A stretch of 43,821 nucleotides of DNA, taken from an uncultured Elusimicrobiales bacterium (GTDB lineage Bacteria; Elusimicrobiota; Elusimicrobia; Elusimicrobiales; Elusimicrobiaceae). This document shows positions 794 through 41,503 of the stretch, piece after piece. Under the pieces are notes generated by a model. That model did no database searches. It saw only the letters and a program-made list of their open reading frames with translations, and was not told where the DNA came from. The stretch spans positions 1-43,821 of the forward strand of contig CALUVA010000003.1 in NCBI GenBank assembly GCA_944324105.1, written 5' to 3'. A program made the translations under genes and the position numbers. The stretch's first letter is position 1; every line of letters begins with the position of its first letter.

Positions 794-803
794 TTGCTAT
801 AAT
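794..803 (+). promoter_or_regulatory. Extended -10 promoter, leaderless type, for the glycosyltransferase
   Basis: TTGCTATAAT ends six bases before the ATG at 810, so transcription should start at or next to the start codon. No Shine-Dalgarno is present. A weak -35 (TTGTTC, 776-781) lies 16 bp upstream of the -10. Confidence 0.75.
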
Positions 804-809
804 AAACAT

Positions 810-1913
810 ATGAAGATTTTATATGTCTGCACGTCTACGGAAACGGGCGGGGCCGAAACGGCTTTGCGCGCCCAGGCATTGGCCGCGCGCGAAGCGGGAC
901 ACGGCGTAAAAATTATCTCTTTAAAACCCCTGGGCTCCGTCGGGCGGGACCTTCAAAGCAAGGGGCTTGAAATAATCAGTTTTCAAATGAAAGGCAGGCT
1001 GCGCCCGCTGGAAACGGCCGGTGTATTGGCGCGGCTGGTGCAGGAAATACAAGATTTTAAGCCTGACATCGTACACGCCTGTTTATACCGTGCCATACAG
1101 TTGTGCCGCCTGGCCAAAAGGCGTGCGGAGTTTACGCTCATTACCACCCCGCATTATGATTTATCCCGTAAAAATTATTTTTTGCGCTTGCTGGACCGCG
1201 CTTTAAAAGACGCCGATTCCGTCAGCTGTGCCGAATCATATGCCACGGCGGAATTTTTAAAGAAAAAGCAAAAATATGCGGAAGAAAAAATCCGTTTGGT
1301 TACCAACGGCGTCCGCGCGGAAGTTTTTCATCCAAACGAACAGCGGGCCGTACAGGAGCGGGAAAAATGGGGTTTTGCTCCGCAGGACGTGGTATTTTTG
1401 TGCGGGGCGCGGCTGTCTGCGGAAAAAAACCATATGCTTTTATTAAAAAGTTTTGCCTCCGTATCTGCCAAAAACCCGCATGTAAAGCTCATGTTGGCCG
1501 GAGACGGACCGGAAAAAGAAAAACTAGAGGCTTTTGTCTGTGAAAAGAAAATGGAAAAGGCCGTCTTTTTTATGGGAGAAGTAAGTAATATTTATCCTCT
1601 TTTGTTAGCGTCTGACGCGGCAATTTTGGTTTCTTCTATAGAGAGTATGCCCATGTTTTTATTGGAGGCTTGTTCATGCGGACTTCCGGCTATTGTTAGT
1701 AAAGCAGGCGATATGCCCCGTCTGGTTCACCACGGGGAAAACGGCTTTGTGTGCAACGGACAGGATCCGGTGCTTTTAAGCGCTTTAATAGCGGAAATGG
1801 CGGAAAATAAAACACTTCGCAAACGGATGGGACAAAAATCGTTAGAAAGAATACATAAATATTATCCTGCTCCGGAGCAGATTTATTTGCAGATTTATCA
1901 GGAATTTCAGTAG
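810..1913 (+). CDS. Glycosyltransferase family 4-like protein
   Basis: 367 residues with the GT-B layout. The N-terminal half opens with MKILYVCTSTETGGAETAL, the nucleotide-sugar transferase opening with a Gly-rich GGAE loop. The C-terminal half has FLCGARLSAEKNHMLLLKSF, LMLAGDGPEKEKLE and a SIESMPMFLLEACSCGLPAI segment, the usual donor-binding EX7E-type region of family 4 glycosyltransferases. It probably acts at the cytoplasmic face of the inner membrane in synthesis of LPS or another glycoconjugate; donor and acceptor are unknown. The gene appears to be transcribed as a leaderless mRNA. Its stop codon overlaps the first base of a ParB-site-like palindrome, and lepB follows 26 bp later. Confidence 0.9.
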   Translation: MKILYVCTSTETGGAETALRAQALAAREAGHGVKIISLKPLGSVGRDLQSKGLEIISFQMKGRLRPLETAGVLARLVQEIQDFKPDIVHACLYRAIQLCRLAKRRAEFTLITTPHYDLSRKNYFLRLLDRALKDADSVSCAESYATAEFLKKKQKYAEEKIRLVTNGVRAEVFHPNEQRAVQEREKWGFAPQDVVFLCGARLSAEKNHMLLLKSFASVSAKNPHVKLMLAGDGPEKEKLEAFVCEKKMEKAVFFMGEVSNIYPLLLASDAAILVSSIESMPMFLLEACSCGLPAIVSKAGDMPRLVHHGENGFVCNGQDPVLLSALIAEMAENKTLRKRMGQKSLERIHKYYPAPEQIYLQIYQEFQ

Positions 1914-1928
1914 TTTTCACGTGAAAAC
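1913..1928. promoter_or_regulatory. parS-like palindrome 1
   Basis: GTTTTCACGTGAAAAC, a perfect 16-bp palindrome with the CACGTG core of ParB-binding sites. It lies between the glycosyltransferase stop and lepB, about 2.1 kb before parB. Confidence 0.7.
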
Positions 1929-1939
1929 AGGGAGAATAT

Positions 1940-2914
1940 ATGGAACAAAGGCTTTTTATTGCGGCATGTATTATGTATTTGTTTGCCTGGGTCAGCAGAA
2001 GATTATTCCGTAAAAATAAACTGGATAAGCCTTCAGCTTTTGGCATGTGGCATGCGGGCTTTTTACTGTTGATTTTGGGCTGTGCTTATTATATTTTTAG
2101 TTTCATTATGAATAGTTCTGCCTCTATCCCCCAAGAAGGAGTGTCCGCTAAAACGGTTATCATATGCCTGCTGATACTGGCTGTATCAGTGTATGGCTTT
2201 TTCTCTGCCCGGAAAAAGAATGCCGAACAGCGCCAGCCTCTGATTAAAACAGATTTAGATTGGGCAAATACAGTGTATTTTGCCGGTTTTGTGGCGGCTT
2301 TTGTGATGTTCTTTTTTGTGCAAGCCTTTAAAATTCCCTCCGCTTCTATGGAGAATACTTTGTTAATAGGGGACCATTTGTTTGTGAATAAAGCCGCCTA
2401 TGGCTTCCGTATTCCGCTGACGCAAATACGTTTTGGTGAATTTAAACATATACAGCCAGGGGATATTATTGTCTTTACGTTTCCGGCGGATACTCCTCAG
2501 CAGGTAAACTGCGGCGGTTATCAGTATGGGCGGGATTATGTAAAACGTGTTGTGGCCATGCCCGGGGACAAAGTGGAAGTAAGAGAAGGGAATTTATATG
2601 TAAATGATGAAAAAGTGCCTTTGCACGGTTATGAAAGATTTGAAGATGTGCAGCGCTTTGAAGTAGGAGAAACGCTTCCGCAGGATTTGTATCAGTCTCT
2701 TTGGGAGGAACATAAGTTAGAAGATATTTTTGGTATTACCCTGCGGGATGATTTCGGACCGGTGGTGGTGCCGGAGGGAACTTATTTTGCGATGGGAGAT
2801 AACCGAGATAATTCCTGCGATTCCCGTTTTTGGGGTCCTGTCCCTCGCGAGAACATTAAAGGAACCGCCTGGTTTATCCACTGGCCAATAAAGCGGATAG
2901 GACTTATTAAATAG
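1940..2914 (+). CDS. lepB: Signal peptidase I with extra N-terminal membrane segments
   Basis: 324 residues. The catalytic part begins near residue 112 with a membrane segment, followed by the box-B motif IPSASMENTL (catalytic Ser136), the box-D stretch DYVKRVVAMPGDKV (catalytic Lys202) and box E, GDNRDNSCDSRFWGPV. The enzyme cleaves signal peptides of Sec-exported proteins on the outer face of the inner membrane. Before the usual anchor there are further hydrophobic stretches at about residues 5-18, 38-57 and 72-90, so the N-terminus is longer than in single-anchor enzymes. GGGAG at 1930-1934 is the ribosome-binding site. The coding sequence looks AT-richer than the parAB genes downstream. 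Confidence 0.96.
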   Translation: MEQRLFIAACIMYLFAWVSRRLFRKNKLDKPSAFGMWHAGFLLLILGCAYYIFSFIMNSSASIPQEGVSAKTVIICLLILAVSVYGFFSARKKNAEQRQPLIKTDLDWANTVYFAGFVAAFVMFFFVQAFKIPSASMENTLLIGDHLFVNKAAYGFRIPLTQIRFGEFKHIQPGDIIVFTFPADTPQQVNCGGYQYGRDYVKRVVAMPGDKVEVREGNLYVNDEKVPLHGYERFEDVQRFEVGETLPQDLYQSLWEEHKLEDIFGITLRDDFGPVVVPEGTYFAMGDNRDNSCDSRFWGPVPRENIKGTAWFIHWPIKRIGLIK

Positions 2915-2951
2915 CCTTTTGTATAGGGAAATACAGAAGCACACCGAAAAA

Positions 2952-2960
2952 TTATCCACA
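2952..2960 (+). promoter_or_regulatory. DnaA-box-like 9-mer
   Basis: TTATCCACA matches the consensus DnaA box exactly and lies in the lepB-parA intergenic region next to three parS-like sites. It is a single copy, so it does not by itself make an origin. Confidence 0.4.
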
Positions 2961-2965
2961 CTATA

Positions 2966-2998
2966 AACAGGCTTTATTTTAATAAAGCCTGTTTTGTT
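2966..2998 (+). terminator. Terminator after lepB
   Basis: AACAGGCTTTAT (2966-2977) pairs with ATAAAGCCTGTT (2982-2993) around a four-base loop and is followed by a T-rich stretch that runs into parS-like site 2. Confidence 0.8.
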
Positions 2999-3012
2999 TC
3001 CACGTGAAAACA
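2995..3012. promoter_or_regulatory. parS-like palindrome 2
   Basis: TGTTTCCACGTGAAAACA: the left half matches sites 3 and 4, the right half matches site 1. The remaining lepB-parA gap (3013-3221) otherwise holds sites 3 and 4 and the parA promoter. Confidence 0.75.
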
Positions 3013-3030
3013 TAAAATAAGCAGGGGAGC

Positions 3031-3048
3031 AGTTTCCACGTGGAAACT
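3031..3048. promoter_or_regulatory. parS-like palindrome 3
   Basis: AGTTTCCACGTGGAAACT, a perfect 18-bp palindrome 174 bp upstream of parA. Confidence 0.8.
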
Positions 3049-3150
3049 TTTATACAGAAGGCATCTGATAAACGGATAAGAGAAACATATATGAATATAG
3101 TGGTGGTTCGGCGGATATTCTTACTTTCCTTATAAAAATCTTGTTTAAAT

Positions 3151-3168
3151 TGTTTCCACGTGGAAACA
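3151..3168. promoter_or_regulatory. parS-like palindrome 4
   Basis: TGTTTCCACGTGGAAACA, a perfect 18-bp palindrome just upstream of the putative parA promoter (TTGCTT at 3175-3180, 18-bp spacer, TTTAAT at 3199-3204). ParB bound here could also influence parAB transcription. Confidence 0.82.
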
Positions 3169-3221
3169 AAACAGTTGCTTTTATAACTTATTTTATGTTT
3201 TAATATCTTAACGGAGGATAT

Positions 3222-4055
3222 ATGGGTGAAATAGTAGCCATTGCCAACCAAAAGGGCGGAGTGGGTAAAACCACGACGGCCATCAATTTATCTTATGCCC
3301 TGGCCTATTTGGACCAGGAAGTGCTGCTGGTAGACTTTGATCCGCAGGGGAATGCCGGTTCCGGTTTGGGCATTACCTTAAATGACGGGGAAAAATCCGT
3401 CTATCATCTTATTACTAAAAATGCTTCTTTTGAGGAAGTGGTGAAACAGACTTCTAATGAAATGTTAGATGTTTTGCCCACCTGCAAAAATCTGGCCGGA
3501 GCGGAAGTGGAGCTGGTCAATGTGCGCGGGCGAGAAAATATGCTGCGCGAAGTCCTTGCCCCGCTGCGCAAAATGTACCGCTACATTATTATAGACTGCC
3601 CTCCTTCTTTGGGGCTTTTAACCTTAAATGCATTGATGGCAGCAGACAGCGTTATCACTCCTGTACAATGCGAATATTACGCCATGGAAGGGTTGGCCCA
3701 CTTTATGACGACTATTTCCAAAATTAAACAGTTTTTAAATACCAATTTAAAGCTGGACGGCGGTGTATTGACCATGTATGATGCGCGCATGAATCTGTCC
3801 AAACAGGTCTTTGAAGAAGTCAGCCGTTTCTTTGGGGAGCAGGTATATAAAACCCCCATTCCGCGCAATATCCGCCTGGCGGAAGCCCCCAGCTTTGGGC
3901 AGTCCATTTTTGATTACGATCCGGCCTGCCGCGGGGCCAATGCATATGTGGACCTGGCTGTGGAATTTTTAGCCCGCCGCGGCGCCAATGTGGCGGATTT
4001 TGTAAAACCGGAAATGGCAATTTCCGGGAATTACAGTTATGATTTCGGAGGATAA
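3222..4055 (+). CDS. parA: Chromosome partitioning ATPase ParA (Soj)
   Basis: 277 residues. The deviant Walker A motif KGGVGKTT is at residues 11-18, followed by VLLVDFDPQGNAGSGLG (Walker A') and YIIIDCPPSLGLLTLNAL (Walker B region), diagnostic of the MinD/ParA family. ParA binds nucleoid DNA as an ATP dimer and helps move or separate ParB-bound origin regions. The start is fixed by GGAGG at 3212-3216. parB begins two bases after the stop and four parS-like palindromes lie upstream, so this is a chromosomal-type parABS locus rather than an orphan ParA. Confidence 0.97.
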   Translation: MGEIVAIANQKGGVGKTTTAINLSYALAYLDQEVLLVDFDPQGNAGSGLGITLNDGEKSVYHLITKNASFEEVVKQTSNEMLDVLPTCKNLAGAEVELVNVRGRENMLREVLAPLRKMYRYIIIDCPPSLGLLTLNALMAADSVITPVQCEYYAMEGLAHFMTTISKIKQFLNTNLKLDGGVLTMYDARMNLSKQVFEEVSRFFGEQVYKTPIPRNIRLAEAPSFGQSIFDYDPACRGANAYVDLAVEFLARRGANVADFVKPEMAISGNYSYDFGG

Positions 4056-4057
4056 AT

Positions 4058-4954
4058 ATGGCCAGACAGGCATTAGGCAAAGGGCTGGACGCCTTGCTCA
4101 AACAAACCCAGGAAGTATTAAATAATCCGGCTGCGGCCCAGAACAGCCAAAACAGCGGCGGAGCGTCCGTACATAAAATCGCTTTAAATAAAATTATTCC
4201 CAACCGTTTCCAGCCGCGCCGCGTATTTGACGAGGCGAAACTGCAGGAGCTGGCCCAGTCTATTCAGGAGCATGGCCTGACCCAGCCGATAGTGGTGGTT
4301 TACGACGCGGGAATGGATAAATATGAAATTGTCGTCGGGGAGCGGCGTTTCCGCGCCAGCCAGCTGGCGGGCCTGACGGAGATTGATGCTTTGGTGCATA
4401 AAGCGTTGTCCGACCAGCAAATGTGCGCCCTGGCCCTGATTGAAAATATTCAGCGCGAGGATTTAAACCCCATAGAAACCGCGCTGGGCTACCGTAATTT
4501 AATGAATAAGTTTGGCATTTCCCAAACCGATTTGGCGCAATATTGCGGCAAATCCAAAGGGGCGGTGTCCAATTCCCTGCGCCTGCTGGAGCTGCCGCAG
4601 CATATGCAGGACGCTTTGCAAGACGGTACGATTACGGAAGGACACGGCAAAGCCTTGTTAATGCTTTCCGACCCCGCCAAAAAAGAAACACTGTTTCAGC
4701 GCATGAAAAAAACCAAGATGTCTGTGCGCCAGGCCGAAGACGCGGCGCGGGCGTTGCTGCAGCCTGCCGGAGCCAAAAAAGGGCCCAAACCGCCGGAGGT
4801 GGCCTCTTTTGAAAACGAATTGCAGGCCGCTTTGGGTACCAAAGTGGAAGTGCGCTACGGCAAAAAAATGTCCAAAGGGGTATTGATGATTCAATACAAC
4901 TCTTTGGAAGAACTGGATAATTTGGCCAGCCGCTTAAAAACCAAGTTATTATAA
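4058..4954 (+). CDS. parB: Chromosome partitioning CTPase ParB (Spo0J)
   Basis: 298 residues. The N-terminal start MARQALGKGLDALL is typical of ParB. A ParB/Srx domain follows with IIPNRFQPRR near residues 47-55 and the CTP-binding box GERRFRA at 94-100, then ENIQREDLNPIETA and a helix-turn-helix region (FGISQTDLAQYCGKSKGAVSNSLRLL). The C-terminal dimerisation region is present. It should load at the palindromic parS-like sites and spread as a CTP-dependent clamp. The ribosome-binding site GGAGG lies inside the end of parA, so the pair is translationally linked. Confidence 0.97.
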   Translation: MARQALGKGLDALLKQTQEVLNNPAAAQNSQNSGGASVHKIALNKIIPNRFQPRRVFDEAKLQELAQSIQEHGLTQPIVVVYDAGMDKYEIVVGERRFRASQLAGLTEIDALVHKALSDQQMCALALIENIQREDLNPIETALGYRNLMNKFGISQTDLAQYCGKSKGAVSNSLRLLELPQHMQDALQDGTITEGHGKALLMLSDPAKKETLFQRMKKTKMSVRQAEDAARALLQPAGAKKGPKPPEVASFENELQAALGTKVEVRYGKKMSKGVLMIQYNSLEELDNLASRLKTKLL

Positions 4955-4966
4955 AAGAAACAAATT

Positions 4967-5000
4967 AAAAAAAGTCCGGTTTCGTGCCGGACCTTTTTTG
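4967..5000 (+). terminator. Terminator after parB
   Basis: GTCCGG (4974-4979) pairs with CCGGAC (4987-4992), preceded by an A-run and followed by a T-run. Confidence 0.88.
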
Positions 5001-5454
5001 TGTGTTGGGAAAAAATGCGGACTGTTCTGAAAAATGTTGATGGCACCTTTTTACGGATGTGTCGCTTTGCTTAAACAAAAAGAAATAGTTTTCATGTGAA
5101 AACAGCTTTATTTATTTGATTTGGGCTGTTAAATGCCTTAAAAAGTGCGATTTTGCGCAAAAAGGCCATTTTTAGCGGCTTTATTGAATTTTTTATCCGT
5201 TTGCTTGGCCATTTTATAAAAAATTAAATAAAGGCCTATTTTGCGCAAAAATAATTTTCTCCGTCGGAGAAAACACACATTTTTAGTTTAAAAAACCTTT
5301 TTTATCTGACTTTTTGCCTTTCAGCCCGTTTACTACTGACCTTTTGGGGAAGGCAACATCTCTTATTTTTTTTGGGGACCTTCATTTTCTTAAAGTTAGT
5401 TAAACTAACTTGGTACGGTCGCGGCGGTGTTTTTAATAGGTTCAAAAGCTGCGT
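5001..5454. other. Non-coding convergent gap with several palindromes
   Basis: About 450 AT-rich bases without a credible gene lie between the parB terminator and the terminators of the leftward cluster. They hold a parS-like site (5088-5103), two copies of TTTTGCGCAAAA (5151-5162 and 5239-5250) flanked by GGCC-containing sequence in inverted orientation, TTTTCTCCG-T-CGGAGAAAA (5255-5273) and AAGTTAGTT-A-AACTAACTT (5393-5411). I cannot assign a function. Genes on both sides point into this gap. Confidence 0.5.
5088..5103. promoter_or_regulatory. parS-like palindrome 5 (degenerate)
   Basis: GTTTTCATGTGAAAAC differs from site 1 only by T for C in the core (CATGTG). It lies downstream of parB. 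Confidence 0.5.
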
Positions 5455-5487
5455 AAAAAACCCTCGCACACGAAGCGGGGGTTTTTA
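5455..5487. terminator. Bidirectional terminator
   Basis: An A-run followed by CCCTCGC pairs, with one G-T wobble, with GCGGGGG followed by a T-run, so it can end transcripts from either side. Confidence 0.75.
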
Positions 5488-5505
5488 ACTACGGCTCACA
5501 AATAA

Positions 5506-5527
5506 ACCCCGGGCTTAAGCCCGGGGT
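5506..5527. terminator. Perfect 22-bp GC-rich palindrome, probable terminator of the leftward cluster
   Basis: The arm ACCCCGGGCTT (5506-5516) is followed directly by its exact complement (5517-5527). It sits 30 bp beyond the stop of the aminotransferase gene; the following T-tract on the minus strand is short. Confidence 0.6.
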
Positions 5528-5556
5528 ATTTCGTTTTGGATTTTTTCAAAAACAAA

Positions 5557-6681: not shown

Positions 6682-6701
6682 AACTATTTTACAGACTCCT
6701 T

Positions 6702-7331
6702 TTATTTGTACAGGCTGTATACGTCGGGCATTTCCAGCACGTCTTTGGTAATGTTTTGGAATTCCCGTCCGGTAAACGTGGCCACCAGTGCAACGACGAA
6801 ACGGTTATCGTGCTTGGTGACTTCTTTTTTGAGAATTTGCACGTTTCTCTTTTCTATTTCTGCACAAATCTGATCCACTACGCTCCATTTCGGCGCGCAG
6901 GTTAAATAAATGGTATCGTAACGGCGCAGGCGTTCCAGCAGGCCCAGCGTGCGCCGCACGCCCAGCTGCATGAGTATGGCCGCCGCACAGGCGGAGGAAG
7001 CCAAAATATACTGGCCAAAACCAACCGCCATGCCGATGGCCGCCACCAGCCACACGGCCGCGGCGGTGGTCAGGCCGGAAATTTTATTTCCTTCGCGCAA
7101 AATCGCGCCCGCGCCCAAAAAACCTACGCCGGATACGATTTGCGCCGCAATGCGCCCCGGGTCGCCGCCCATTTCCGCCATGTATAAAGACAACATGGTA
7201 AACAGGGCCGCGCCCAAACAAATAATGGAATTGGTGGCGTAGCCGGCGGGCTTGTCGTTATATTCGCGTTCCAGGCCCATAATGCCGCCTAACACCAACG
7301 CTAAAACCACTTTAACGATAAAATCTTCCAT
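6702..7331 (-). CDS. MgtC/SapB family membrane protein
   Basis: 209 residues. The N-terminal two thirds hold four to five membrane segments and the family hallmarks [53 protein letters not shown] and [19 protein letters not shown]. The soluble C-terminus (from about residue 140) resembles the ACT-like tail of MgtC relatives. MgtC of pathogens supports growth at low magnesium, partly by modulating other proteins; most relatives are uncharacterised, so no transport function is assigned. The gene has its own leaderless-type promoter, TTGCTATAAT at 7347-7338, overlapping the terminator of the gene before it. Confidence 0.93.
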
Positions 7332-7337
7332 GTTTGT

Positions 7338-7347
7338 ATTATAGCAA
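7338..7347 (-). promoter_or_regulatory. Extended -10 promoter, leaderless type, for the mgtC-like gene
   Basis: Read on the minus strand: TTGCTATAAT, six bases (ACAAAC), then ATG. No Shine-Dalgarno. Confidence 0.75.
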
Positions 7348-7348
7348 A

Positions 7349-7369
7349 ACGGGGCCTGGCCCGCCCCGT
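7349..7369 (-). terminator. Terminator of the transporter-like gene
   Basis: ACGGGGC (7349-7355) pairs with GCCCCGT (7363-7369). On the minus strand the stem is followed by a short T-run that is also the upstream part of the mgtC-like promoter. Confidence 0.6.
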
Positions 7370-7373: not shown

Positions 7374-8423
7374 TTAAAGCATCCACATCAAAACGGCAAA
7401 ATATACCGCCATGCAGATAATCCCTACAGGCAGGGCCGCGCGCGCCCAGTCGCGGCTTTTGATGGCCAGCTTGGAGGCGCAAATAATGTTGGGAATGTTG
7501 CCCGGGATTAACAAGCCGCCCGCCAGCACCAAAGACACCAGTAAAAATACCAGCGTGTCCGGCGGCAGGGAAGGCTGTATTTCAATGCTGGCCAGCGTGG
7601 CATTGTCCAACACGGCAGAGAGGGTGTTTATCCAGTACAGCACCGCGCGAGACAGATGACCGATGGTGCGCTCCGCCAGCGGTTTAAGACCTTCTCCCAG
7701 CAGAATAAGAGCTGCTACAAACAAATATACTTTTCCCGCGCGGGAAAGCACCGCGGCATTGGTTTCCGGCGAAACGGAACGCTGTCCGTCCGTCAGCGCA
7801 CAGGCGCCCAGCCGCGCGGCCAGGGCGGCAAACAGAATAACGCCCGGAATAATCCACCAACCCAGCAACTGCAACAAAAAGAAAAATCCCGCATGATACG
7901 GTTCCTCGCGCAGGCGCGCCACCACGATGGTGGACAGCGGCTCCCCCACCGGCGTCAGCACCGCGCCCAGCCCGACGGCAAAACAGACGTAAACGGTCAG
8001 GCGTACTTTTTGCCGTTCGTCCAAACGCAGGCCTTTAATGACTTCCGCCGCCAGCAACGCGGCGATAATGGCCGTAATCAGGCTGGAGCACAGCCCCAGA
8101 GCCAGCACGAAAAAAAACAAAAACCAGCGCGGCCCCACGCTTTTTTCGGCGCGGTGAACAAAAGCATTTAACCCGCCGCCGAAACGCTTAAATAAAAATC
8201 CCAGCACCAGCACCGCGGCGGAAATTAGGATGGGTTCTTTGACCGCTTCCAGCAGCAAATGTCCGCTCCACAGCCCCGATATGCTCACCGCGGCGATGCC
8301 GCAGACAAAGAGGAAAATTTCCAGTTCCTCTTCGGCCTTTTTAAACAAAAAAGGAACGAACAGCGCCGCCAGCACGACGCCGGAAAGACAGGCGGTTTGC
8401 CATAAAGAAAGTGCGGTATTCAT
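7374..8423 (-). CDS. Multi-pass membrane protein, putative cation transporter (DUF1646-like)
   Basis: 349 residues, almost entirely hydrophobic, with roughly nine or ten membrane segments. The stretch AVGLGAVLTPVGEPLSTIVVARL near the middle and GGLLIPGNIPNIICASKLAIKSRDW near the end are the two re-entrant-type motifs of the ion-transporter superfamily (ArsB/NhaD-like). I associate this arrangement with DUF1646, annotated as putative cation transporters. The ion and direction are unknown. The start is supported by a TACAAT box seven bases before the ATG and by the absence of any other good start. It precedes the mgtC-like gene on the same strand but has its own terminator. Confidence 0.75.
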   Translation of the reverse strand: MNTALSLWQTACLSGVVLAALFVPFLFKKAEEELEIFLFVCGIAAVSISGLWSGHLLLEAVKEPILISAAVLVLGFLFKRFGGGLNAFVHRAEKSVGPRWFLFFFVLALGLCSSLITAIIAALLAAEVIKGLRLDERQKVRLTVYVCFAVGLGAVLTPVGEPLSTIVVARLREEPYHAGFFFLLQLLGWWIIPGVILFAALAARLGACALTDGQRSVSPETNAAVLSRAGKVYLFVAALILLGEGLKPLAERTIGHLSRAVLYWINTLSAVLDNATLASIEIQPSLPPDTLVFLLVSLVLAGGLLIPGNIPNIICASKLAIKSRDWARAALPVGIICMAVYFAVLMWML

Positions 8424-8430
8424 ATTTGTT

Positions 8431-8436
8431 ATTGTA
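8431..8436 (-). promoter_or_regulatory. -10 box, leaderless type, for the transporter-like gene
   Basis: TACAAT on the minus strand, seven bases before the ATG at 8423. It lacks the TG extension seen at most other leaderless starts. Confidence 0.55.
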
Positions 8437-9211: not shown

Positions 9212-9808
9212 TTATTTTTTCAAAGCGGTTTTGACAACGGTTAACGGAGGCCGCATATCCGCAAAGGTTCCCTCTTCCACGGCTTTTACAATGCGGTCCC
9301 ACTGGCCGCGGGCCTTTAAAATCTGCTCGCAGATATCGCGCACCGCACCGCAGCCGCCGTGTTTGGGGGAAACGTACAAAGCGATTTTTTTCACTTCTGC
9401 CACAGCGTTGTCCACCGCCAGCGGCAGACCGGCGGCTTTTAAAATTCCCAGGTCTATAATGTCGTCTCCGATAAAGGCGGCTTCCTGCGGCGTGCAGCCA
9501 AACCGGGCGCAGGCGTCGTGCAGAGCGGCGGCTTTGTTCAGGCAGCCGAAGTAAAGGATATCCATACCCAACAGCCGCGCCCAGTTTTGCAGAACGGGTG
9601 CGGACCCGCGCGACACGATGCCCGTATGTACTCCGCACGCGCGCAGGAAAATCATACCCATCCCGTCCAGGGATTCAAAATGTTTCACTTCTATATGGCG
9701 GCCTTCCCCGTCGGTGTACCAAGCAAGCTTGCTGTCGGTCATTACCCCGTCAATATCGGTCAGCAGAAGTTTGAGATTTTTGGCTTTTTCAATAAAATCC
9801 GGATTCAT
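9212..9808 (-). CDS. kdsC: HAD phosphatase, KdsC-like 3-deoxy-D-manno-octulosonate 8-phosphate phosphatase
   Basis: 198 residues from the ATG at 9808. An in-frame start 141 bp further upstream exists but would add 47 residues that do not look like the family, and it would place the TATAAT box inside the gene. The catalytic motif LLLTDIDGVMTDSKL (Asp18, Asp20) and GDDIIDLGIL near the C-terminus, without a cap domain, are typical of the tetrameric KdsC/YrbI group. The enzyme releases Kdo from Kdo-8-phosphate for LPS core synthesis in the cytoplasm. The related KDN-9-phosphate phosphatases cannot be fully excluded. Confidence 0.85.
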   Translation of the reverse strand: MNPDFIEKAKNLKLLLTDIDGVMTDSKLAWYTDGEGRHIEVKHFESLDGMGMIFLRACGVHTGIVSRGSAPVLQNWARLLGMDILYFGCLNKAAALHDACARFGCTPQEAAFIGDDIIDLGILKAAGLPLAVDNAVAEVKKIALYVSPKHGGCGAVRDICEQILKARGQWDRIVKAVEEGTFADMRPPLTVVKTALKK

Positions 9809-9814
9809 GAAATA

Positions 9815-9823
9815 ATTATACCA
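9815..9823 (-). promoter_or_regulatory. Extended -10 promoter, leaderless type, for kdsC
   Basis: On the minus strand TGGTATAAT lies six bases (TATTTC) before the ATG at 9808. It faces away from the promoter of the CsgG-like gene 50 bp to the right. Confidence 0.7.
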
Positions 9824-9866: not shown

Positions 9867-9872
9867 TATAAT
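9867..9872 (+). promoter_or_regulatory. -10 box, leaderless type, for the CsgG-like lipoprotein
   Basis: TATAAT followed by six bases (GATACT) and ATG at 9879. There is no Shine-Dalgarno. Confidence 0.7.
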
Positions 9873-9878
9873 GATACT

Positions 9879-10556
9879 ATGAAAAAAGTTTTGCTTTTTT
9901 TGCTGTGTCTGGTTTTTTGGGGAGCGGGCTGTACGCCCAAAACCGTCATCAGCCAAAGTTATGATTTCAACCAAATGGACCGCATCGGCATTATGGGCTT
10001 TACCAGTGCGTACAGCGATTTAAACGGCGTGGAAAATTTGTTTGCCAAATATTTAATAGAATCCGGGTTTAAAGTGGTGGAACGCGCCCAGCTGGACCAG
10101 GTGTTAAAGGAACACAATATTTCGGTGTCGGGGTATTTGTCTCCGGAGACGACACGCAAAATAGGCGAAATTTTAGGCGTGGATGTGCTGTTAATCGGGG
10201 AAGTAACTTCTTATACTCCCACCCGTACCGGCGTGGCTATGGTAACCACCCGCCGCACCGAATCCCGCCCTGTCTATGCCCAAAACGTGATGCAGCTGCC
10301 GGACGGTTCTTATGCTGCTTATACGCAAAACGTGGGCACACGCTACAGCCACAGCACCGACGTTTCCCCGCAGCAGTATACGATTAATGCCCAAGTAGGC
10401 ATTATTGCCAAGCTGGTGGATGTGGAAACGGCTGAAATTGTGTGGATAGGCTCTTTGTCCGAAGACAGTTCCAGCGCGCTGGACGCGGCGGACTATATTG
10501 CACGCAGCCTGGTGAAAAGTTTTACCAAAGAGCTGGCCAAACTGCAGGAAAAATAA
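9879..10556 (+). CDS. CsgG-like lipoprotein
   Basis: 225 residues from the ATG at 9879. An upstream in-frame ATG at 9831 would bury the signal sequence and the -10 box. The signal peptide MKKVLLFLLCLVFWGAGC ends in a lipobox with lipidated Cys18. The mature part has IGIMGFTSAYSDLNGVENLFAKYLIESGFKVVERAQLDQVLKEHN and IGEILGVDVLLIGEVTSY, the fold signature of the CsgG / penicillin-binding-protein-activator (LpoB-like) lipoproteins. These sit at the outer membrane's inner leaflet. No other curli genes are visible, so curli export is not claimed. It is followed without a gap by a small membrane protein and then serS. Confidence 0.78.
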   Translation: MKKVLLFLLCLVFWGAGCTPKTVISQSYDFNQMDRIGIMGFTSAYSDLNGVENLFAKYLIESGFKVVERAQLDQVLKEHNISVSGYLSPETTRKIGEILGVDVLLIGEVTSYTPTRTGVAMVTTRRTESRPVYAQNVMQLPDGSYAAYTQNVGTRYSHSTDVSPQQYTINAQVGIIAKLVDVETAEIVWIGSLSEDSSSALDAADYIARSLVKSFTKELAKLQEK

Positions 10557-14870: not shown

Positions 14871-14880
14871 ATTATAACAA
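14871..14880 (-). promoter_or_regulatory. Extended -10 promoter of pdaD-speB
   Basis: TTGTTATAAT on the minus strand. The predicted start gives a leader of about 30 nt with a GAGGA site, so this transcript is not leaderless. An inverted repeat TTAATTC/GAATTAA lies in the leader. Confidence 0.65.
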
Positions 14881-23684: not shown

Positions 23685-23691
23685 TTATAAT
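23682..23691 (+). promoter_or_regulatory. Extended -10 promoter, leaderless type, for the lipoprotein gene
   Basis: TTGTTATAAT followed by six bases and ATG at 23698. The -35 position falls inside the terminator hairpin. Confidence 0.72.
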
Positions 23692-23697
23692 AAGCAT

Positions 23698-24129
23698 ATG
23701 AAAAAACAATTACTTATCGGGGTGCTGTGTCTGTGCTGTGCGGCTTGCGCTTCTTCAGGAGGGAAAGATTCTTCTCTGGTGGGCGCGGATAAAGACGGGC
23801 ACGGCTGTATTGCTTCGGCCGGATATACCTATGTTTCCGTTTTGGGCCGCTGCGCCCGCCTGTGGGAAGAAGGGGTGCGTTTAAATCCCGTGCAGCCCCC
23901 GTCCGGCGGGGCGGTCTTGAGTGCTTTTGCCGTATTGTCCGAAAGCGGTGCGGAAGCGGAGCTGTTTTTGCCGGAGGCGGAACCCGTAATTTTAACCCGT
24001 TCCTTTACGCCGGAAGGGCCGTATTGGACGACAGAAAACTACCGCCTGGAACGCTTGCCGCAGGGCTGGCGGCTGTATGAGAAAGATCTCCTGTTGTATA
24101 CGGCGCCCAATCCGCCCGTTGCAAATTGA
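23698..24129 (+). CDS. Small lipoprotein of unknown function
   Basis: 143 residues. The signal peptide MKKQLLIGVLCLCCAAC ends in a lipobox with Cys17 as the lipidated residue, followed by a Ser/Gly linker. The mature part (VGADKDGHGCIASAGYTYVSVLGRCARLWEEGVRLNP, then a beta-rich stretch) has two further Cys. It is reminiscent of small periplasmic domains but I cannot name the family. It should be anchored in the outer or inner membrane. The stop codon overlaps the -35 hexamer of the infC promoter. Confidence 0.7.
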   Translation: MKKQLLIGVLCLCCAACASSGGKDSSLVGADKDGHGCIASAGYTYVSVLGRCARLWEEGVRLNPVQPPSGGAVLSAFAVLSESGAEAELFLPEAEPVILTRSFTPEGPYWTTENYRLERLPQGWRLYEKDLLLYTAPNPPVAN

Positions 24130-25514: not shown

Positions 25515-25520
25515 TAAAAT
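25515..25520 (+). promoter_or_regulatory. -10 box, leaderless type, for rsmE
   Basis: TAAAAT, six bases (ATACGC), ATG at 25527. No Shine-Dalgarno and no TG extension. Confidence 0.55.
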
Positions 25521-25526
25521 ATACGC

Positions 25527-26225
25527 ATGCCCCAGTATTTGGCTGATATTAAAGAAAAAGAATTTTTTGTACAGGACGATGAAGCGCGCCACCTGACGCT
25601 GGTTGCCCGCCATAAAGAAGGCGATGTCGTTACCGTTTTTGACGGCAAAGGCAAACAATATACGGCACGTATAGAACGCGTGCAGAAAAATTTTGTGCGC
25701 GGCGTTCTGCTGGAGGCTCTGCCTTCGCGCAAATCCGCGCTGTCTTTGGAGCTTTGTTTCGCGCCGACGTCCCGCAATACTCTGGAAGACGTGTTGGACA
25801 AATGCACGCAGCTGGGCGTGGATTCCTTTTTACCCATACGCACGGTACGCAGTGAATACGATTTGTTCAAAAAATGGGATCAAAAAGCAGACCGCTGGCG
25901 GCAAATTATTCTCTCTGCCTGCAAACAGTGCGACCGCGCCGATGTGCCCGTACTTAAGGAACCTGCGGATTTTGTTTCCGCCGCCGCGCAGCGGGATATT
26001 CCGTCCCTGCTGGCCTATGAGGCCGAAGAAACCCGTACGCTGGCCTGGGGGCTGGAAAAACTGGGGCGCCCTGCTGCCCTGCGCGTTTATATCGGCCCCG
26101 CCGGAGGCTGGGCCGATGAGGAAGTGGTCGTCGCCGCCCAATACGGCATTTTGCCCGTTACGCTGGGGCCGCACATTTTGCGCGCCGAAACGGCCTGTAT
26201 AGCGGCTGCGGCCAAACTGTTATGA
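25527..26225 (+). CDS. rsmE: 16S rRNA m3U1498 methyltransferase RsmE
   Basis: 232 residues. An N-terminal PUA-like domain (EFFVQDDEARHLTLVARHKEGDVVTVFDGKG) precedes a SPOUT knot domain with LDKCTQLGVDSFLPIRTVRSEY, YIGPAGGWADEEV and PVTLGPHILRAETACIAA, which form the SAM-binding trefoil. It methylates U1498 in 16S rRNA. The stop overlaps the next start (ATGA). Confidence 0.94.
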   Translation: MPQYLADIKEKEFFVQDDEARHLTLVARHKEGDVVTVFDGKGKQYTARIERVQKNFVRGVLLEALPSRKSALSLELCFAPTSRNTLEDVLDKCTQLGVDSFLPIRTVRSEYDLFKKWDQKADRWRQIILSACKQCDRADVPVLKEPADFVSAAAQRDIPSLLAYEAEETRTLAWGLEKLGRPAALRVYIGPAGGWADEEVVVAAQYGILPVTLGPHILRAETACIAAAAKLL

Positions 26226-35000: not shown

Positions 35001-35001
35001 A

Positions 35002-35301: not shown

Positions 35302-35310
35302 AGGTTTCCT

Positions 35311-35571
35311 TTACGGCAAAGCGTTTCTTTTTTCCTGTGCGCGCGTAATTTCTTTCTCCACGCGCGTTTGCAGTTTTTTCAGGGTGCTGACGGTGCTTTT
35401 TTTCCACTCGCGCAGGGCTTTGAGTTCGCTTTCGCTCTCTTTCAGGCGCGCCACGGTTTCTTCCTGTTGGCGCAGTTTTTGGCGCAGCGCGGCCGTTTCG
35501 CCTTCCAGCGTTTGAATACGCGCGGCGGCCTGCGACACCAAAAGCTCCAGCTGCTTGAGTTGCTCCTGCAT
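35311..35571 (-). CDS. Short coiled-coil protein (ZapB-like in form)
   Basis: 86 residues, nearly all one amphipathic helix with heptads (LKQLELLVSQAAARIQTLEGETAALRQKLRQQEE). It starts one base after the pheT stop and ends nine bases before the ZapA-like gene. In other bacteria ZapB, a similar-sized coiled coil, binds ZapA; that parallel is inference from form and place, not from sequence identity. Confidence 0.55.
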   Translation of the reverse strand: MQEQLKQLELLVSQAAARIQTLEGETAALRQKLRQQEETVARLKESESELKALREWKKSTVSTLKKLQTRVEKEITRAQEKRNALP

Positions 35572-35572
35572 A

Positions 35573-37957: not shown

Positions 37958-37966
37958 ATTTCTTCC

Positions 37967-39013
37967 TTAAAATTGGTTTAACAGGCGCAAATCGTTTTCG
38001 TAGAAAGCGCGGATGTCGTTGATGTTCATCATCATCATGGCCAGGCGTTCCACTCCCATGCCAAAGGCATAACCGCTGTATTTTTCGGGGTCAATGCCGC
38101 AGTTTTTCAGCACATTGGGGTGCACCACGCCCGAGCCGAGCATTTCTATCCAGCCGCTGCCCTTGCAGATGTGGCAGCCCTTGCCGGCGCAGAATACGCA
38201 TTTGACGTCCACTTCCGCGCTGGGTTCGGTAAACGGGAAAAAGGACGGACGGAAGCGGATTTCCGTCTTATCTCCCAGCAGCCCTTTCATAAAGGCGGAC
38301 AAATCGCGTTTTAAATCGGCCATGCTGACGTTTTTGTCCACATACAGCCCTTCAATCTGATGAAAAACAGGGCTGTGCGTGGCGTCCAGGCTGTCATTGC
38401 GGAACACGCGGCCCGGGGCCATAATGCGCAGCGGCGGCTGGTGTTTTTCCATAAAGCGGCTTTGTACGTTGGACGTATGTGTGCGCAGCACCATGGACAG
38501 CGGACTGCCGGTTTGGGCAAAAAAGGTATCCTGCGCATCGCGCGCGGGGTGGTGTTTGGGGATATTGAGCATGTCAAAATTGTGCTTTTCGTCCTCCACC
38601 CACGGCCCTTCGGCCCAGGTAAAGCCGAGTTTGGACAAAATGTCCGTCATGCGCTTCTGCGCAATGGAAAGCGGGTGCCGTTTGCCGCAGGGAACGGGGC
38701 GTGCGGGCAGGGTTAAATCCAAATCCACGCGGTTTAATTGTTCGTTGAGTTCCTGCGCGGCCAGCGCGGTGGTTTTTTCTTCCAGGACGCGGGTCAGCGC
38801 GGCTTTTAACGCATTGCCCAGCGGGCCGGCGGCCTTTTTATCTTCTATGGAAAAATCTTTCAGATTTTTCAAAAGCTCGGTCAGCGCGCCTTTGCGCCCT
38901 AGGGCGGCTACGCGCAGTTCTTCCACGGCCTCCAGGGCGGAGGCGGAAGCGATTTTGCCAGTATATTCGCGCTCAATTTGGGCGCAAAGTTCTTTAAATT
39001 CCTGTAAGGTCAT
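37967..39013 (-). CDS. pheS: Phenylalanyl-tRNA synthetase alpha subunit
   Basis: 348 residues. An N-terminal coiled coil is followed by the class II core with HPLSIAQKRMTDIL, FNIP-like FDMLNIPKHHPARDAQDTFF, motif 2 RVFRNDSLDATHSPVFHQIEG and motif 3 AFGMGVERLAMM. It attaches Phe to tRNA-Phe. No Shine-Dalgarno is clear; TATAAC lies five bases and TAAAAT ten bases before the ATG, so this transcript may also be nearly leaderless. Confidence 0.98.
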   Translation of the reverse strand: MTLQEFKELCAQIEREYTGKIASASALEAVEELRVAALGRKGALTELLKNLKDFSIEDKKAAGPLGNALKAALTRVLEEKTTALAAQELNEQLNRVDLDLTLPARPVPCGKRHPLSIAQKRMTDILSKLGFTWAEGPWVEDEKHNFDMLNIPKHHPARDAQDTFFAQTGSPLSMVLRTHTSNVQSRFMEKHQPPLRIMAPGRVFRNDSLDATHSPVFHQIEGLYVDKNVSMADLKRDLSAFMKGLLGDKTEIRFRPSFFPFTEPSAEVDVKCVFCAGKGCHICKGSGWIEMLGSGVVHPNVLKNCGIDPEKYSGYAFGMGVERLAMMMMNINDIRAFYENDLRLLNQF

Positions 39014-39078
39014 AAGTAGTTATATTTTACTTTATTATTGGGTATTGGCGGCAAAATTTAAGTCAGCGTGTCAGATTT

Positions 39079-39104
39079 TAAAAACCCCGCCTGCGGGCGG
39101 GGCT
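39079..39104 (-). terminator. Terminator of glnA
   Basis: CCCCGCC (39085-39091) pairs with GGCGGGG (39096-39102); on the minus strand a T-run follows the stem. Confidence 0.9.
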
Positions 39105-39126
39105 TTGGCAAAGCTGCGTAGCACGA

Positions 39127-40476
39127 TTACAGCACGGAGAGGTATTTTTCCAGCTCATAGCTGGATACATGGCAGCGGTACTGGTCCCATTCAATGTCTT
39201 TATTGGCGATAAATTTTTCAAACGTATGTTCGCCCAATATTTTGCGTACCAGCCCGGAGCGGCGCGTTTCATTGACCGCTTCGTACAAATACGCTGGCAG
39301 GGTGCCGATGCCGCGTTTTTCGCGCTCTTGTGCCGTCATATGGAAAATATTTTCTTCCGTCATGGCCGGCACGGGCAGTTTCCGGGCAATGCCGTCCAGG
39401 CCCGCTCCCAGCATGACCGCAAAAGCCAGATAAGGATTACAGGCCGGATCGGGGAAGCGGCACTCTATGCGCGTGGCGGCAGGCTTGCCAGCTTTGGCCT
39501 GCGGAATGCGCACCAGCGCACTGCGGTTTTTGCGGCCCCAGGCAATATAAGAGGGTGCTTCATATCCCGGCACGAGGCGTTTGTAAGAGTTGACCCATTG
39601 GTTGGTAACAGCACAAATTTCGTTTACATGCGTCAAAATACCTGCGATGTAATGTTTGGCTGTCTGGGACAGATACAGCGGGTCGTTGGCGTCAAAGAAC
39701 TGGTTTTCCCCGTTGGCAAACAAAGACTGGTGAACATGCATGCCGTTGCCGTTGATACCGGCAATAGGTTTTGGCATAAAGGAAGCGTATACGCCGTTGG
39801 ACGCGGCGATTTGCTTGACGACGGTTTTGTAGGTAATAACCTGGTCGGCCATTTTCATGGCTTCGTCATAACGCAGGTCTATTTCGTGCTGGGACGGCGC
39901 GACCTCATGGTGGGAATATTCCACATGAATGCCCAGTTTCTCCAGCATCAGCATGGTTTGCCGGCGGATAGCGTAAGAGGAATCCAGCGGGATGGTGTCA
40001 AAATAGCCGCCGCAGTCCAGTGTTTCGGGGTGTTTGTTGTCTTTAAAATAAAAGTATTCCAGTTCCGGGCCGACCATAAACGCGTCAAATCCGGCCCGGC
40101 GCATGGCGGCCAGGTTCTTTTTGAGGATGTAGCGCGGATCTCCTTCAAATTGCTTGCCGTCCGCGGTTTTGATGTCACAGAAAAAGCGTGCAATGGGCGC
40201 CCCGGTCAGCTCCGGGGGGAACATTTGGAACGTATCCAAATCCGGCAGGGCCACCAGGTCCGATTCATAAATGCGCGCAAACCCTTCCACCGAAGAACCG
40301 TCAAACCCCATGCCTTCGTTCATGGCGTATTCAAATTCGCGGTGGGACAGGGAGAGGGACTTTAGGTTGCCCAAAATATCCACAAACCACAGTTTGATGA
40401 TTTGAATATTATTACGTCTGGTCAAGTCTAAAATTTGTTTGATGGTTTCCTGTTCCTGTGAGCTGCGTGGCTGCAT
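39127..40476 (-). CDS. glnA: Glutamine synthetase, type I (alpha-like)
   Basis: 449 residues from the ATG at 40476, set by GGGAGGA just upstream; longer readings run into the promoter. Beta-grasp domain with GMGFDGSSVEGFARIYESDL, catalytic domain with GPELEYFYF, NGNGMHVHQSL and ATRIECRFPDPACNPYLAFAVMLGAGLDGI. It makes Gln from Glu and ammonia. The C-terminal IEWDQYRCHVSSYELEKY matches the Firmicutes-type GSI-alpha, and I find no NLYxLP-like adenylylation site, so control by feedback or a protein partner is more likely than by adenylylation (inference). Confidence 0.96.
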   Translation of the reverse strand: MQPRSSQEQETIKQILDLTRRNNIQIIKLWFVDILGNLKSLSLSHREFEYAMNEGMGFDGSSVEGFARIYESDLVALPDLDTFQMFPPELTGAPIARFFCDIKTADGKQFEGDPRYILKKNLAAMRRAGFDAFMVGPELEYFYFKDNKHPETLDCGGYFDTIPLDSSYAIRRQTMLMLEKLGIHVEYSHHEVAPSQHEIDLRYDEAMKMADQVITYKTVVKQIAASNGVYASFMPKPIAGINGNGMHVHQSLFANGENQFFDANDPLYLSQTAKHYIAGILTHVNEICAVTNQWVNSYKRLVPGYEAPSYIAWGRKNRSALVRIPQAKAGKPAATRIECRFPDPACNPYLAFAVMLGAGLDGIARKLPVPAMTEENIFHMTAQEREKRGIGTLPAYLYEAVNETRRSGLVRKILGEHTFEKFIANKDIEWDQYRCHVSSYELEKYLSVL

Positions 40477-40506
40477 ACATTCCTCCCAAGTTTTATTTAA
40501 ACCGTT

Positions 40507-40512
40507 ATTATA
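40507..40512 (-). promoter_or_regulatory. -10 box of glnA
   Basis: TATAAT on the minus strand, directly after the T-run of the upstream terminator; the leader to the ATG is about 25 nt and carries a Shine-Dalgarno. Confidence 0.6.
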
Positions 40513-40513
40513 T

Positions 40514-40578
40514 AAAAAACCGCCTTGTCTGGAGGCGGTTTTATGTGTTTTTTTAAAAACGGCTGCGGGGGAAAGCCG
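40514..40578 (-). terminator. Tandem terminators of the ybgC-like/yjbQ transcript
   Basis: Read leftward: CGGCT (40564-40560 side) pairing with AGCCG (40574-40578) and a T-run, then AGGCGGTT/AACCGCCT (40540-40533, 40525-40518) and a second T-run leading into the glnA -10 box. Confidence 0.75.
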
Positions 40579-40624
40579 CGCCTTGCGGGCAAGCGGGGCC
40601 CGGGAGTGCAAACCCCCGGTACGT

Positions 40625-41005
40625 TTAAAGCGTCATGGCTTGTTTTACGTCTGCGCCCATAGAGGTGGGCATGCCGTTTTTGTCCACGCATACCAGCGTA
40701 GTTTTGCCTTTGGTGCACAGGCGGCCGTTTTGGTTGGTGATGATGTTTTCAAACACGATTTTAATGTCTGAAATTTCCAGCACTTTGGTACTGACGTCTA
40801 TGACATCTGCATAGCGCACTGGAAATTTGTATTCCACTTCCTGGCGCGCCACCACGAAATACAGGCCTTTTTGCATCAAGGCCGGCACAGAGAAGCCTTT
40901 TTCGGCCATATATAGGGTGCGGGCCTCTTCAAAAAATTTTAAATAATTGGCGTAATAGACCACGTTGCCGCAGTCCGTGTCATGGTAAAAGATGGTTTTT
41001 TTCAT
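40625..41005 (-). CDS. YbgC/4-hydroxybenzoyl-CoA thioesterase family acyl-CoA thioesterase
   Basis: 126 residues, hot-dog fold. FYHDTDCGNVVYYANYLKFFEEART carries the catalytic Asp of the DxD-type motif that defines the YbgC/4HBT branch. It hydrolyses acyl-CoA thioesters; the substrate is unknown. It begins two bases after yjbQ ends, so the two are translated together. The 46 bp between its stop and the first terminator are GC-rich and unassigned. Confidence 0.9.
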   Translation of the reverse strand: MKKTIFYHDTDCGNVVYYANYLKFFEEARTLYMAEKGFSVPALMQKGLYFVVARQEVEYKFPVRYADVIDVSTKVLEISDIKIVFENIITNQNGRLCTKGKTTLVCVDKNGMPTSMGADVKQAMTL

Positions 41006-41007
41006 AG

Positions 41008-41424
41008 TTATTCCCCGATAATTTTAATTAAAACACGTTTGTTTCGCTGGCCGTCAAATTCCCCGTAGAAAATGGTTTCCCACGGGCCAAAGTCCAGCCG
41101 TCCGTCCGTTACGGCCACCACCACTTCGCGGCCCAACAGCGTACGCTTTAAATGGGCGTCGCCGTTATCTTCCCCCGTTAAATTATGCTGATATTTATCC
41201 ACGCCGTACGGGGCCAGTTTTTCCGCCCATTTCAAAAAATCGGCGTGCAGACCGCGTTCGTTGTCATTGATAAAAACCGAAGAGGTAATATGCATGGAAT
41301 TGACCAGACACAGTCCTTCGCGGATGCCGCTTTTTTCCAATGCGGCTTCCACCTGTGGGGTAATGTTGACGATGTCGTAACGTCTGTCCGTGCAGAGAGT
41401 TAAGTATTCTGTATGTGATTTCAT
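41008..41424 (-). CDS. YjbQ-family protein (UPF0047)
   Basis: 138 residues. [59 protein letters not shown] and [25 protein letters not shown] are the signature of the YjbQ/UPF0047 family, small trimeric proteins with conserved His and Glu. Family members can show weak thiamin-phosphate synthase activity, but the true role is unsettled. The promoter TTGCTATAGT ends six bases before the ATG. Confidence 0.93.
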
Positions 41425-41430
41425 ATATTT

Positions 41431-41440
41431 ACTATAGCAA
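41431..41440 (-). promoter_or_regulatory. Extended -10 promoter, leaderless type, for yjbQ
   Basis: TTGCTATAGT on the minus strand, six bases, ATG at 41424; no Shine-Dalgarno. Confidence 0.68.
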
Positions 41441-41487
41441 ATCCGGCGCGCGCCGCGCCGCCGCCCTTGCGCGAATGCAGAGTTTAT

Positions 41488-41497
41488 TTGTTACAAT
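41488..41497 (+). promoter_or_regulatory. Extended -10 promoter, leaderless type, for the helical membrane protein
   Basis: TTGTTACAAT, six bases (ATCGGT), ATG at 41504; no Shine-Dalgarno. It is divergent from the yjbQ promoter. Confidence 0.68.
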
Positions 41498-41503
41498 ATC
41501 GGT

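Follow-up and report, generated by a model that had tools for sequence, protein, structure and literature searches.

Elusimicrobiota are a little-studied phylum, and the source of the DNA analysed here is a gut bacterium. The whole stretch of 43,821 nucleotides that we analysed (the window; contig CALUVA010000003.1) comes from an organism near Ca. Avelusimicrobium, and in it nine genes on both strands open directly behind a TATAAT-like box. This raises the question of whether the box is the promoter of a message that begins on the start codon itself, with neither leader nor Shine-Dalgarno site.

Results

Box-led genes in the window and in the genome

All nine boxes lie where the initial annotation had placed them (Table 1), and inspection of the sequence also bears out its reading of the upstream extension, with TGn before six of the nine and TTGn before five; TGn is absent at 8423-, 9879 and 25527. 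Throughout, the gap is the number of bases between the -10-like box and the start ATG.

Table 1. Boxes, gaps and associated genes in the window
Feature	Positions	Strand	Gene and remarks
TATAAT (798-803), TTGC 5' of box, N6, ATG 810	798..812	+	glycosyltransferase gene
TATAAT, N6, ATG 7331	7329..7343	-	MgtC-family gene
TACAAT, 7 nt, ATG 8423	8421..8436	-	DUF1646 gene; without TGn
TATAAT, N6, ATG 9808	9806..9820	-	KdsC-like phosphatase gene; divergent partner of 9879 gene
TATAAT, N6, ATG 9879	9867..9881	+	CsgG-like gene
TATAAT, N6, ATG 23698	23686..23700	+	gene without Pfam match
TAAAAT, N6, ATG 25527	25515..25529	+	RsmE-family rRNA methyltransferase gene (rsmE)
TATAGT, N6, ATG 41424	41422..41436	-	YjbQ/UPF0047 gene (yjbQ)
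TACAAT, N6, ATG 41504	41492..41506	+	278-aa protein without Pfam match
TATAAT, TTTGC 5' of box, 21 nt before tRNA-Gly	42348..42353	+	tRNA-Gly; position calculated from the 21-nt distance
TATAAT, TTTGT 5' of box, 38 nt upstream of ATG 14832	14871..14876	-	pdaD; leadered gene

The exact sequence TATAAT-N6-ATG occurs five times in the window, where 100 shuffles average 0.13, and a -10-like hexamer stands at gap 6 before an in-frame ATG in 8 of the 48 crude genes called there by our own codon-pair script, compared with a mean of 0.67 and a maximum of 4 genes in the shuffled window. Across 443 kb of the genome, a figure that includes the window, the gap-6 hexamer is carried by 32 of 383 genes called in the same crude way, while dinucleotide shuffles of this set give a mean of 4.55 and a maximum of 12; gap 6 has 15 exact and 32 near boxes, where the other gaps average 1.04 and 6.33. 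These gene-based counts cover one third of the genome, and the exact pattern was counted over all of it. Enrichment at this fixed distance had been named beforehand as the point on which the reading could fail, and it is present genome-wide; in an E. coli control of similar GC the same gap profile has no such peak (1 gene at gap 6, mean 1.56).

The genome has 52% GC and its gene starts are AT-rich. In the 443-kb gene set 18 near boxes occur also at gap 0, so that AT-rich start regions by themselves raise the counts. The relaxed pattern TAWAAT-N6-ATG has seven matches in the window where 1.21 are expected; one of them (807-821, minus strand) overlaps the opposite-strand start of the 810 gene, and thus a lone weak box is no proof.

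Features of the start codons

The base at -1 is a pyrimidine in all 32 gap-6 genes, which fits a transcription start on the first base of the ATG; among Shine-Dalgarno starts the count is 141 of 195 (p 0.0002). A looser count, of any ATG opening an 80-codon frame, gives 41/53 at gap 6 and 212/314 elsewhere, and in a relative (G078) the proportion is 26/30 at gap 6. The peak is seen for ATG starts; leaderless GTG and TTG starts were considered and rejected, with no peak at gap 6 and 1 and 3 matches, respectively. Leaderless candidates are mostly genes not placed tightly behind another gene: an upstream gene on the same strand is found within 20 nt at 2 of the 32 box-led genes, compared with 141 of the 351 others (p 7e-5).

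The boxes might instead be ordinary promoters that serve genes with leaders, translation really beginning at a start codon farther downstream; the ATG at +1 would then be a coincidence. Gene finders often misplace starts, and single weak boxes do arise by chance; however, the excess is confined to one spacing, orthologs keep both the ATG and the spacing, and the encoded domains open near the proposed starts (FolD at residue 3, RsmE and the KdsC-like phosphatase near the first residues). Moreover, no Shine-Dalgarno-like motif precedes any candidate start examined in 31 of the 32 genes, and the single motif found lies at an upstream ATG that many orthologs lack. We consider this explanation quite unlikely.

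Two modes of initiation stand side by side, as initially suggested: the 383 crude genes comprise 32 that are box-led, 168 with a Shine-Dalgarno-like motif and 183 with neither. Such motifs are present at rplT (25052) and parA (3222), and glnA, identified by its Pfam match, is likewise in the window. A 16S rRNA was not found in this assembly; for the class Elusimicrobia, PMC10783764 gives a canonical anti-Shine-Dalgarno sequence and 46% Shine-Dalgarno genes.

The box as a promoter element

A TATAAT, TACAAT or TAAAAT box lies 7-66 nt before 9 of the 11 tRNA genes, taken as the best match within 80 nt and without a shuffle control, and eight of these nine boxes carry TGn. The box that tRNA-Gly and pdaD were said to share is indeed present at both, the latter gene being identified by a PvlArgDC Pfam match. 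In the profile of the 32 gap-6 sites G reaches 69% at -14 and T 75% at -15, and a -35 box is not visible. TGn before the -10 hexamer is the mark of extended -10 promoters, and it recurs, though not universally, in the 32 sites; what sets these apart is that the box is fused to the start codon. That TG may substitute for a -35 element is mentioned in a passage of PMC3160421.

Alternatively, the hexamer could be an AT-rich translation signal and no promoter, either an S1-type or a Bacteroidetes-like non-Shine-Dalgarno site, and AT- or U-rich sequence near -10 is indeed discussed as S1 binding in part of PMC5397173. A Bacteroidetes-like ribosome site would act in translation only, whereas a similar extended box precedes 9 of the 11 tRNA genes (no shuffle control) and the leadered pdaD. 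The -1 pyrimidine is a feature of transcription starts and TGn one of promoters, and in the rsmE locus L025 a leader carrying AAGAGG comes after the same box. A translation signal is for these reasons very improbable.

Conservation in orthologs

Orthologs were counted where a start could be mapped. For the CsgG-like gene (9879) and the KdsC-like gene (9808-), with 30 loci out of 66 genomes with a match, gap 6 is kept at 29 of the 30 same-genus loci of the former, the remaining one having gap 7, and at 17 of the 30 of the latter; at four of the KdsC-like loci our script could place no ATG close to the aligned start, and some relatives have gap 9-10. For the 41504 gene, rsmE and yjbQ, the mapped rows number 33, 23 and 26 out of 81, window included: gap 6 occurs in 21/32 mapped relatives of the 41504 gene and in 17/22 of rsmE, and yjbQ (41424-) has a box at gap 6-8 in all 25, at gap 6 in 13. 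At eight neighbouring control genes no box stands at gaps 6-8 in 308 mapped starts. Gene 39013- had been picked as a leadered control, but 37 of 55 relatives have a box 6-8 bases before its start, and it was therefore tallied separately, outside the 308.

Some relatives of rsmE and of the 41504 gene have, by a permissive Shine-Dalgarno rule that was used for yjbQ as well, a leader with such a motif in place of the leaderless layout. The tree that goes with these mapped rows is built on a single gene, and 26 of its 77 inner branches are open. Exact boxes in the closer loci number 22 at gap 6 and 18 at gap 7; given these near-equal counts and the gap variation at yjbQ and the KdsC-like gene, a leader of a few bases may exist there.

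Spread across the lineage

The signal is strong in the genus, and is present in the family and in its sister family. In the genus TGnTATAAT-N6-ATG outnumbers the N9 version by 891 to 94 and is the more frequent in 66 of 66 genomes. The relative G078 has the same peak over 400 kb, gap 6 holding 12 exact and 30 near boxes where the means are 1.44 and 10.41. Samples of 270-290 kb showed no clear gap-6 peak of near boxes: other genera of the family have 19 at gap 6 with up to 27 at other gaps, the sister family has 16 with up to 17, and the rest of the class 6 with up to 6; a further small sample of other genera gave 21 with up to 30, again without a peak. As these samples are so small, spread was judged by whole-genome counts of the exact pattern.

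The first gap-9 control used 42 genomes hand-picked after their gap-6 counts were known, which inflates the contrast; it gave 129 at gap 6 vs 45 at gap 9 in the 19 hand-picked class genomes outside both families. The next 44 such genomes, taken in handle order, gave 109 vs 69, with gap 6 higher in 27; between them the two sets cover all but 23 of the 86 genomes of the class that belong to neither family. Outside the class the counts are 168 vs 117 in 33 genomes, gap 6 being higher in 21. Beyond the two families the signal is thus unclear, and our claim is limited to them.

Within the genus, chance or base composition, in spite of the AT-rich gene starts at 52% GC and the 18 near boxes at gap 0, is disfavoured by the gap-9 and reversed-pattern controls, the dinucleotide shuffles, the lack of a peak in E. 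coli and the empty neighbouring genes, and hardly deserves further consideration.

Discussion

With the box at a distance of exactly six bases from the start codon, the message very likely begins at that codon, and the box-N6-ATG genes are in our judgement very probably leaderless. Three observations favour the start on the ATG that the initial annotation proposed, namely the pyrimidine at -1, the boxes at tRNA genes and the conservation in orthologs, and we infer it from sequence. Leaderless genes would amount to about 7% of the total, from the 32 seen minus 4.55 expected among the 383 crude genes.

We propose that the promoter is of the housekeeping type with an extended -10 element, in which an A/T-rich stretch is followed by TTGn and TATAAT with no visible -35 box, presumably read by the corresponding sigma factor. 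The distance from box to gene would be so short that the first base transcribed by RNA polymerase is the A of the start codon. The resulting mRNA would open with AUG, and the ribosome would presumably initiate through this 5' AUG and the initiator tRNA, no Shine-Dalgarno site being needed for its entry.

Leaderless transcription is already known from many phyla. Zheng et al. 2011 (PMC3160421), in the parts of that paper considered here, read as leaderless those genes that have a TAtaaT-like signal some 12 bp ahead of the start codon, and report TA-led signals in 207 of 953 genomes, 8 of the 20 'Other Bacteria' included, with TAtaaT in medium-GC genomes and a very strong TG before the box in Lactococcus; the term Elusimicrobia does not occur in its main text. 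The Elusimicrobiaceae genes share with those TA-led genes a -10-like signal at a fixed start-codon distance: the hexamer, more frequent there than by chance, would place +1 on the start codon, and 31 of the 32 genes have no Shine-Dalgarno site at the candidate starts examined.

In Deinococcus-Thermus, according to sections of PMC12340547, experiments show that a -10 region adjoining the ORF is the promoter of leaderless mRNAs. The present genes, as judged from sequence, resemble this in having an ORF-adjacent -10 region beside genes with ribosome sites, yet theirs is not the same pattern: there the motif is TANNNT in about 30% of ORFs, and here TAtAaT with TTGn in about 7% of crude genes.

The initial annotation knew of no description in this lineage, and we found none for Elusimicrobiota in the open-licence papers searched; leaderless transcription is apparently new to the record for the phylum. 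Since the mode is already known, the finding extends rather than overturns: one more family, from a poorly studied phylum, joins the bacteria in which leaderless genes are regular, and start-codon calls in Elusimicrobiaceae genomes can be corrected by the spacing rule. Furthermore, natural ortholog pairs that differ chiefly in the leader offer a way to ask what a Shine-Dalgarno leader contributes.

Leaderlessness may be a selected, evolvable gene class in the genus, a composite proposal to which we give even chances. Its core set would be yjbQ and the CsgG-like gene, with the box 6-8 bases from the ATG in every mapped relative; rsmE, the 41504 gene and the KdsC-like gene would have switched between leaderless and leadered forms. 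The switch would take place by the apparent gain or loss of a short Shine-Dalgarno leader 3' of the -10 box, and back-to-back leaderless pairs, with 53-92 nt between the ATGs, would be minimal divergent promoters.

A fusion of terminator and promoter, with a GC-rich hairpin ending beside the box, was considered and rejected as a general feature, since the excess (5 of 32 leaderless genes vs 21 of 400 control boxes, one-sided p 0.035) is weak overall. At 7331- and 23698 it looks clear, a terminator-like hairpin and T run adjoining the box at both genes.

Results

The nine TATAAT-like boxes that the initial annotation placed before the ATGs at 810, 7331-, 8423-, 9808-, 9879, 23698, 25527, 41424- and 41504, six bases away (seven at 8423-), were all located there by inspection of the sequence, and its counts of a TGn element directly before six boxes, five of them as TTGn, were borne out. 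The window holds five exact copies of TATAAT-N6-ATG, where 100 shuffles average 0.13. It corresponds to contig 3 of a draft genome of 1.32 Mb whose completeness is about 81%; together with 20 further stretches of the same genome it gives a sample of 443 kb, roughly one third of the assembly, in which 383 genes were crudely called with a simple codon-pair script. In 32 of the 383 genes a near box (A at position 2, T at position 6 and at least five of the six TATAAT letters) is separated by six bases from an in-frame candidate ATG downstream (gap 6), against a mean of 6.33 over the other gaps, where the highest count is 18, at gap 0; for exact TATAAT the figures are 15 and 1.04. Dinucleotide shuffling of the upstream 30 nt gave a mean of 4.55 and a maximum of 12, and thus the genome-wide excess over shuffled controls that the initial annotation had proposed to look for is found. 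The window is richer than the remaining stretches (8 of 48 crude genes), and the excess outside it is clearly positive on its own (24/335 genes against a shuffle mean of 3.87). In 200 kb of E. coli K-12 the identical pipeline found a single gap-6 gene, compared with a mean of 1.56.

The base before the ATG is C or T at 32/32 gap-6 sites, compared with 141/195 Shine-Dalgarno starts and 125/171 boxes at other gaps; bacterial transcription usually prefers to start on a purine (+1) that follows a pyrimidine (-1). A looser count, which accepts any ATG opening an 80-codon frame and may take in ATGs other than gene starts, gave 41/53 at gap 6 against 212/314. The profile of the 32 sites is A/T-rich from -18 to -16, with T at -15 (75%), G at -14 (69%), the box, and A at -6 (75%), and no -35 hexamer is apparent in it. 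Furthermore, nine of 11 sampled tRNA genes carry TATAAT, TACAAT or TAAAAT 7-66 nt upstream, eight of the nine with TGn (best match within 80 nt, without shuffle control). Box-led genes are rarely internal to operons, only 2/32 lying 20 nt or less behind a same-strand gene against 141/351 others. Because of the -1 pyrimidine, the extended-box profile, the boxes at untranslated tRNA genes and the rarity inside operons, we read the box as a transcription signal.

In orthologs the box and its six-base spacing outlast the flanking sequence, and for this reason we take the proposed start codons to be right. The CsgG-like gene (9879), matched in 66 genomes, keeps gap 6 in 29 of 30 fetched same-genus loci, its own copy included, and gap 7 in the other. 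For the KdsC-like gene (9808-; 30 loci) the gap is 6 in 17, 7 in one, 9-10 in four and 16-18 in four, the script finding no ATG near the aligned start in the remaining four. A near box at gap 6 is present in 17/22 mapped relatives for rsmE, 21/32 for the 41504 gene and 13/25 for yjbQ, where all 25 have gap 6-8. Eight neighbouring genes from the same loci gave 0/308 mapped starts with a box at gaps 6-8. In several box-led products the domains start near residue 1. The 41504-42340 product (278 aa), which adjoins yjbQ and has relatives down to about 41% identity, gave no Pfam or NCBIfam match.

A ninth gene first taken as a control, 37967-39013 (-), has TAAAAT 10 nt before its ATG in the window. 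A near box at gap 6-8 was found in 37 of its 55 mapped relatives, so this tenth candidate seems to lack a leader in many relatives, with a slight shift in the window.

Several leaderless genes stand back to back, with ATGs only 53-92 nt apart, so that the two promoters would occupy the entire intergenic space.

Back-to-back pairs of probable leaderless genes in the window and in two other fetched stretches
Stretch	First ATG	Second ATG
Window	9808-	9879+
Window	41424-	41504+
L009	6559	6613
L022	3746	3839

A GC-rich hairpin adjoins the box at 7331-, 23698+ and 41424-. The hairpins at 7331- and 23698 are followed by a T run, which looks as though the T run of the upstream terminator also supplied the promoter with its T-rich part. 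Such hairpins adjoin 5/32 leaderless sites and 21/400 control boxes. Between convergent genes, at 5506-5527, lies the palindrome ACCCCGGGCTTAAGCCCGGGGT, terminator-like on either strand.

Discussion

The observation is real and, judged from sequence, correctly interpreted as leaderless genes, in which transcription would begin on the start codon, as the initial annotation had read from the fixed spacing. The kind is already known: a 2011 study (PMC3160421) described leaderless genes in 207 of 953 genomes, their -10 box lying about 12 bp upstream of the start, and GeneMarkS-2 is reported to predict leaderless genes in 21.6% of bacterial species (PMC9581028). Those of Deinococcus, which the initial annotation had named, were tested by experiment in a paper that also surveys bacteria at large (PMC12340547). 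Anti-SD data for class Elusimicrobia are given in PMC10783764. The string 'Elusimicrob' is absent from the main texts of PMC12340547, PMC5397173 and PMC9581028, and among open-licence papers we found no description of leaderless genes in Elusimicrobia or Elusimicrobiota; within that literature the occurrence in this lineage seems new, in agreement with the initial annotation.

TGnTATAAT-N6-ATG was counted per genome against the same pattern with nine bases (N9). N6 exceeds N9 by 891 to 94 in the genus itself (higher in 66/66 genomes), by 275 to 41 in other genera of Elusimicrobiaceae (24/24) and by 431 to 182 in the sister family (54 of 59 genomes). For the rest of the class, where 44 plus 19 of 86 genomes were covered, the counts are 109 and 69 in the 44 taken in handle order and 129 and 45 in the 19 hand-picked ones; outside the class they are 168 and 117 (33 genomes). 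We read the signal as strong in Elusimicrobiaceae and present in the sister family. Against this reading, no near-box peak at gap 6 was seen in small samples from other genera and families. The peak does appear in 400 kb of G078, from another genus of the family: gap-6 near boxes precede 30/362 genes, compared with a mean of 10.41, and the -1 base is a pyrimidine in 26/30 against 195/281 at other gaps. Another genome, G258, has identical TGCTATAATAGGCGGGTTATG in five places, probably a repeated element.

Where the box is absent from its place, a Shine-Dalgarno-like motif often stands there instead: by a permissive rule, with the window counted, in 5/23 mapped rows for rsmE and 6/33 for the 41504 gene, five further rows of which have neither. 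On a one-gene tree, many of whose forks are weak, the minimum number of state changes is five for the 41504 gene, three for rsmE and none for yjbQ. In the relative L025, rsmE has the box CAAATTTACTAAAAT followed by a leader with AAGAGG rather than six bases; its -10 region is the same as that of the window and the leader between box and ATG is longer, and the two make a natural ortholog pair, one leadered and one read as leaderless.
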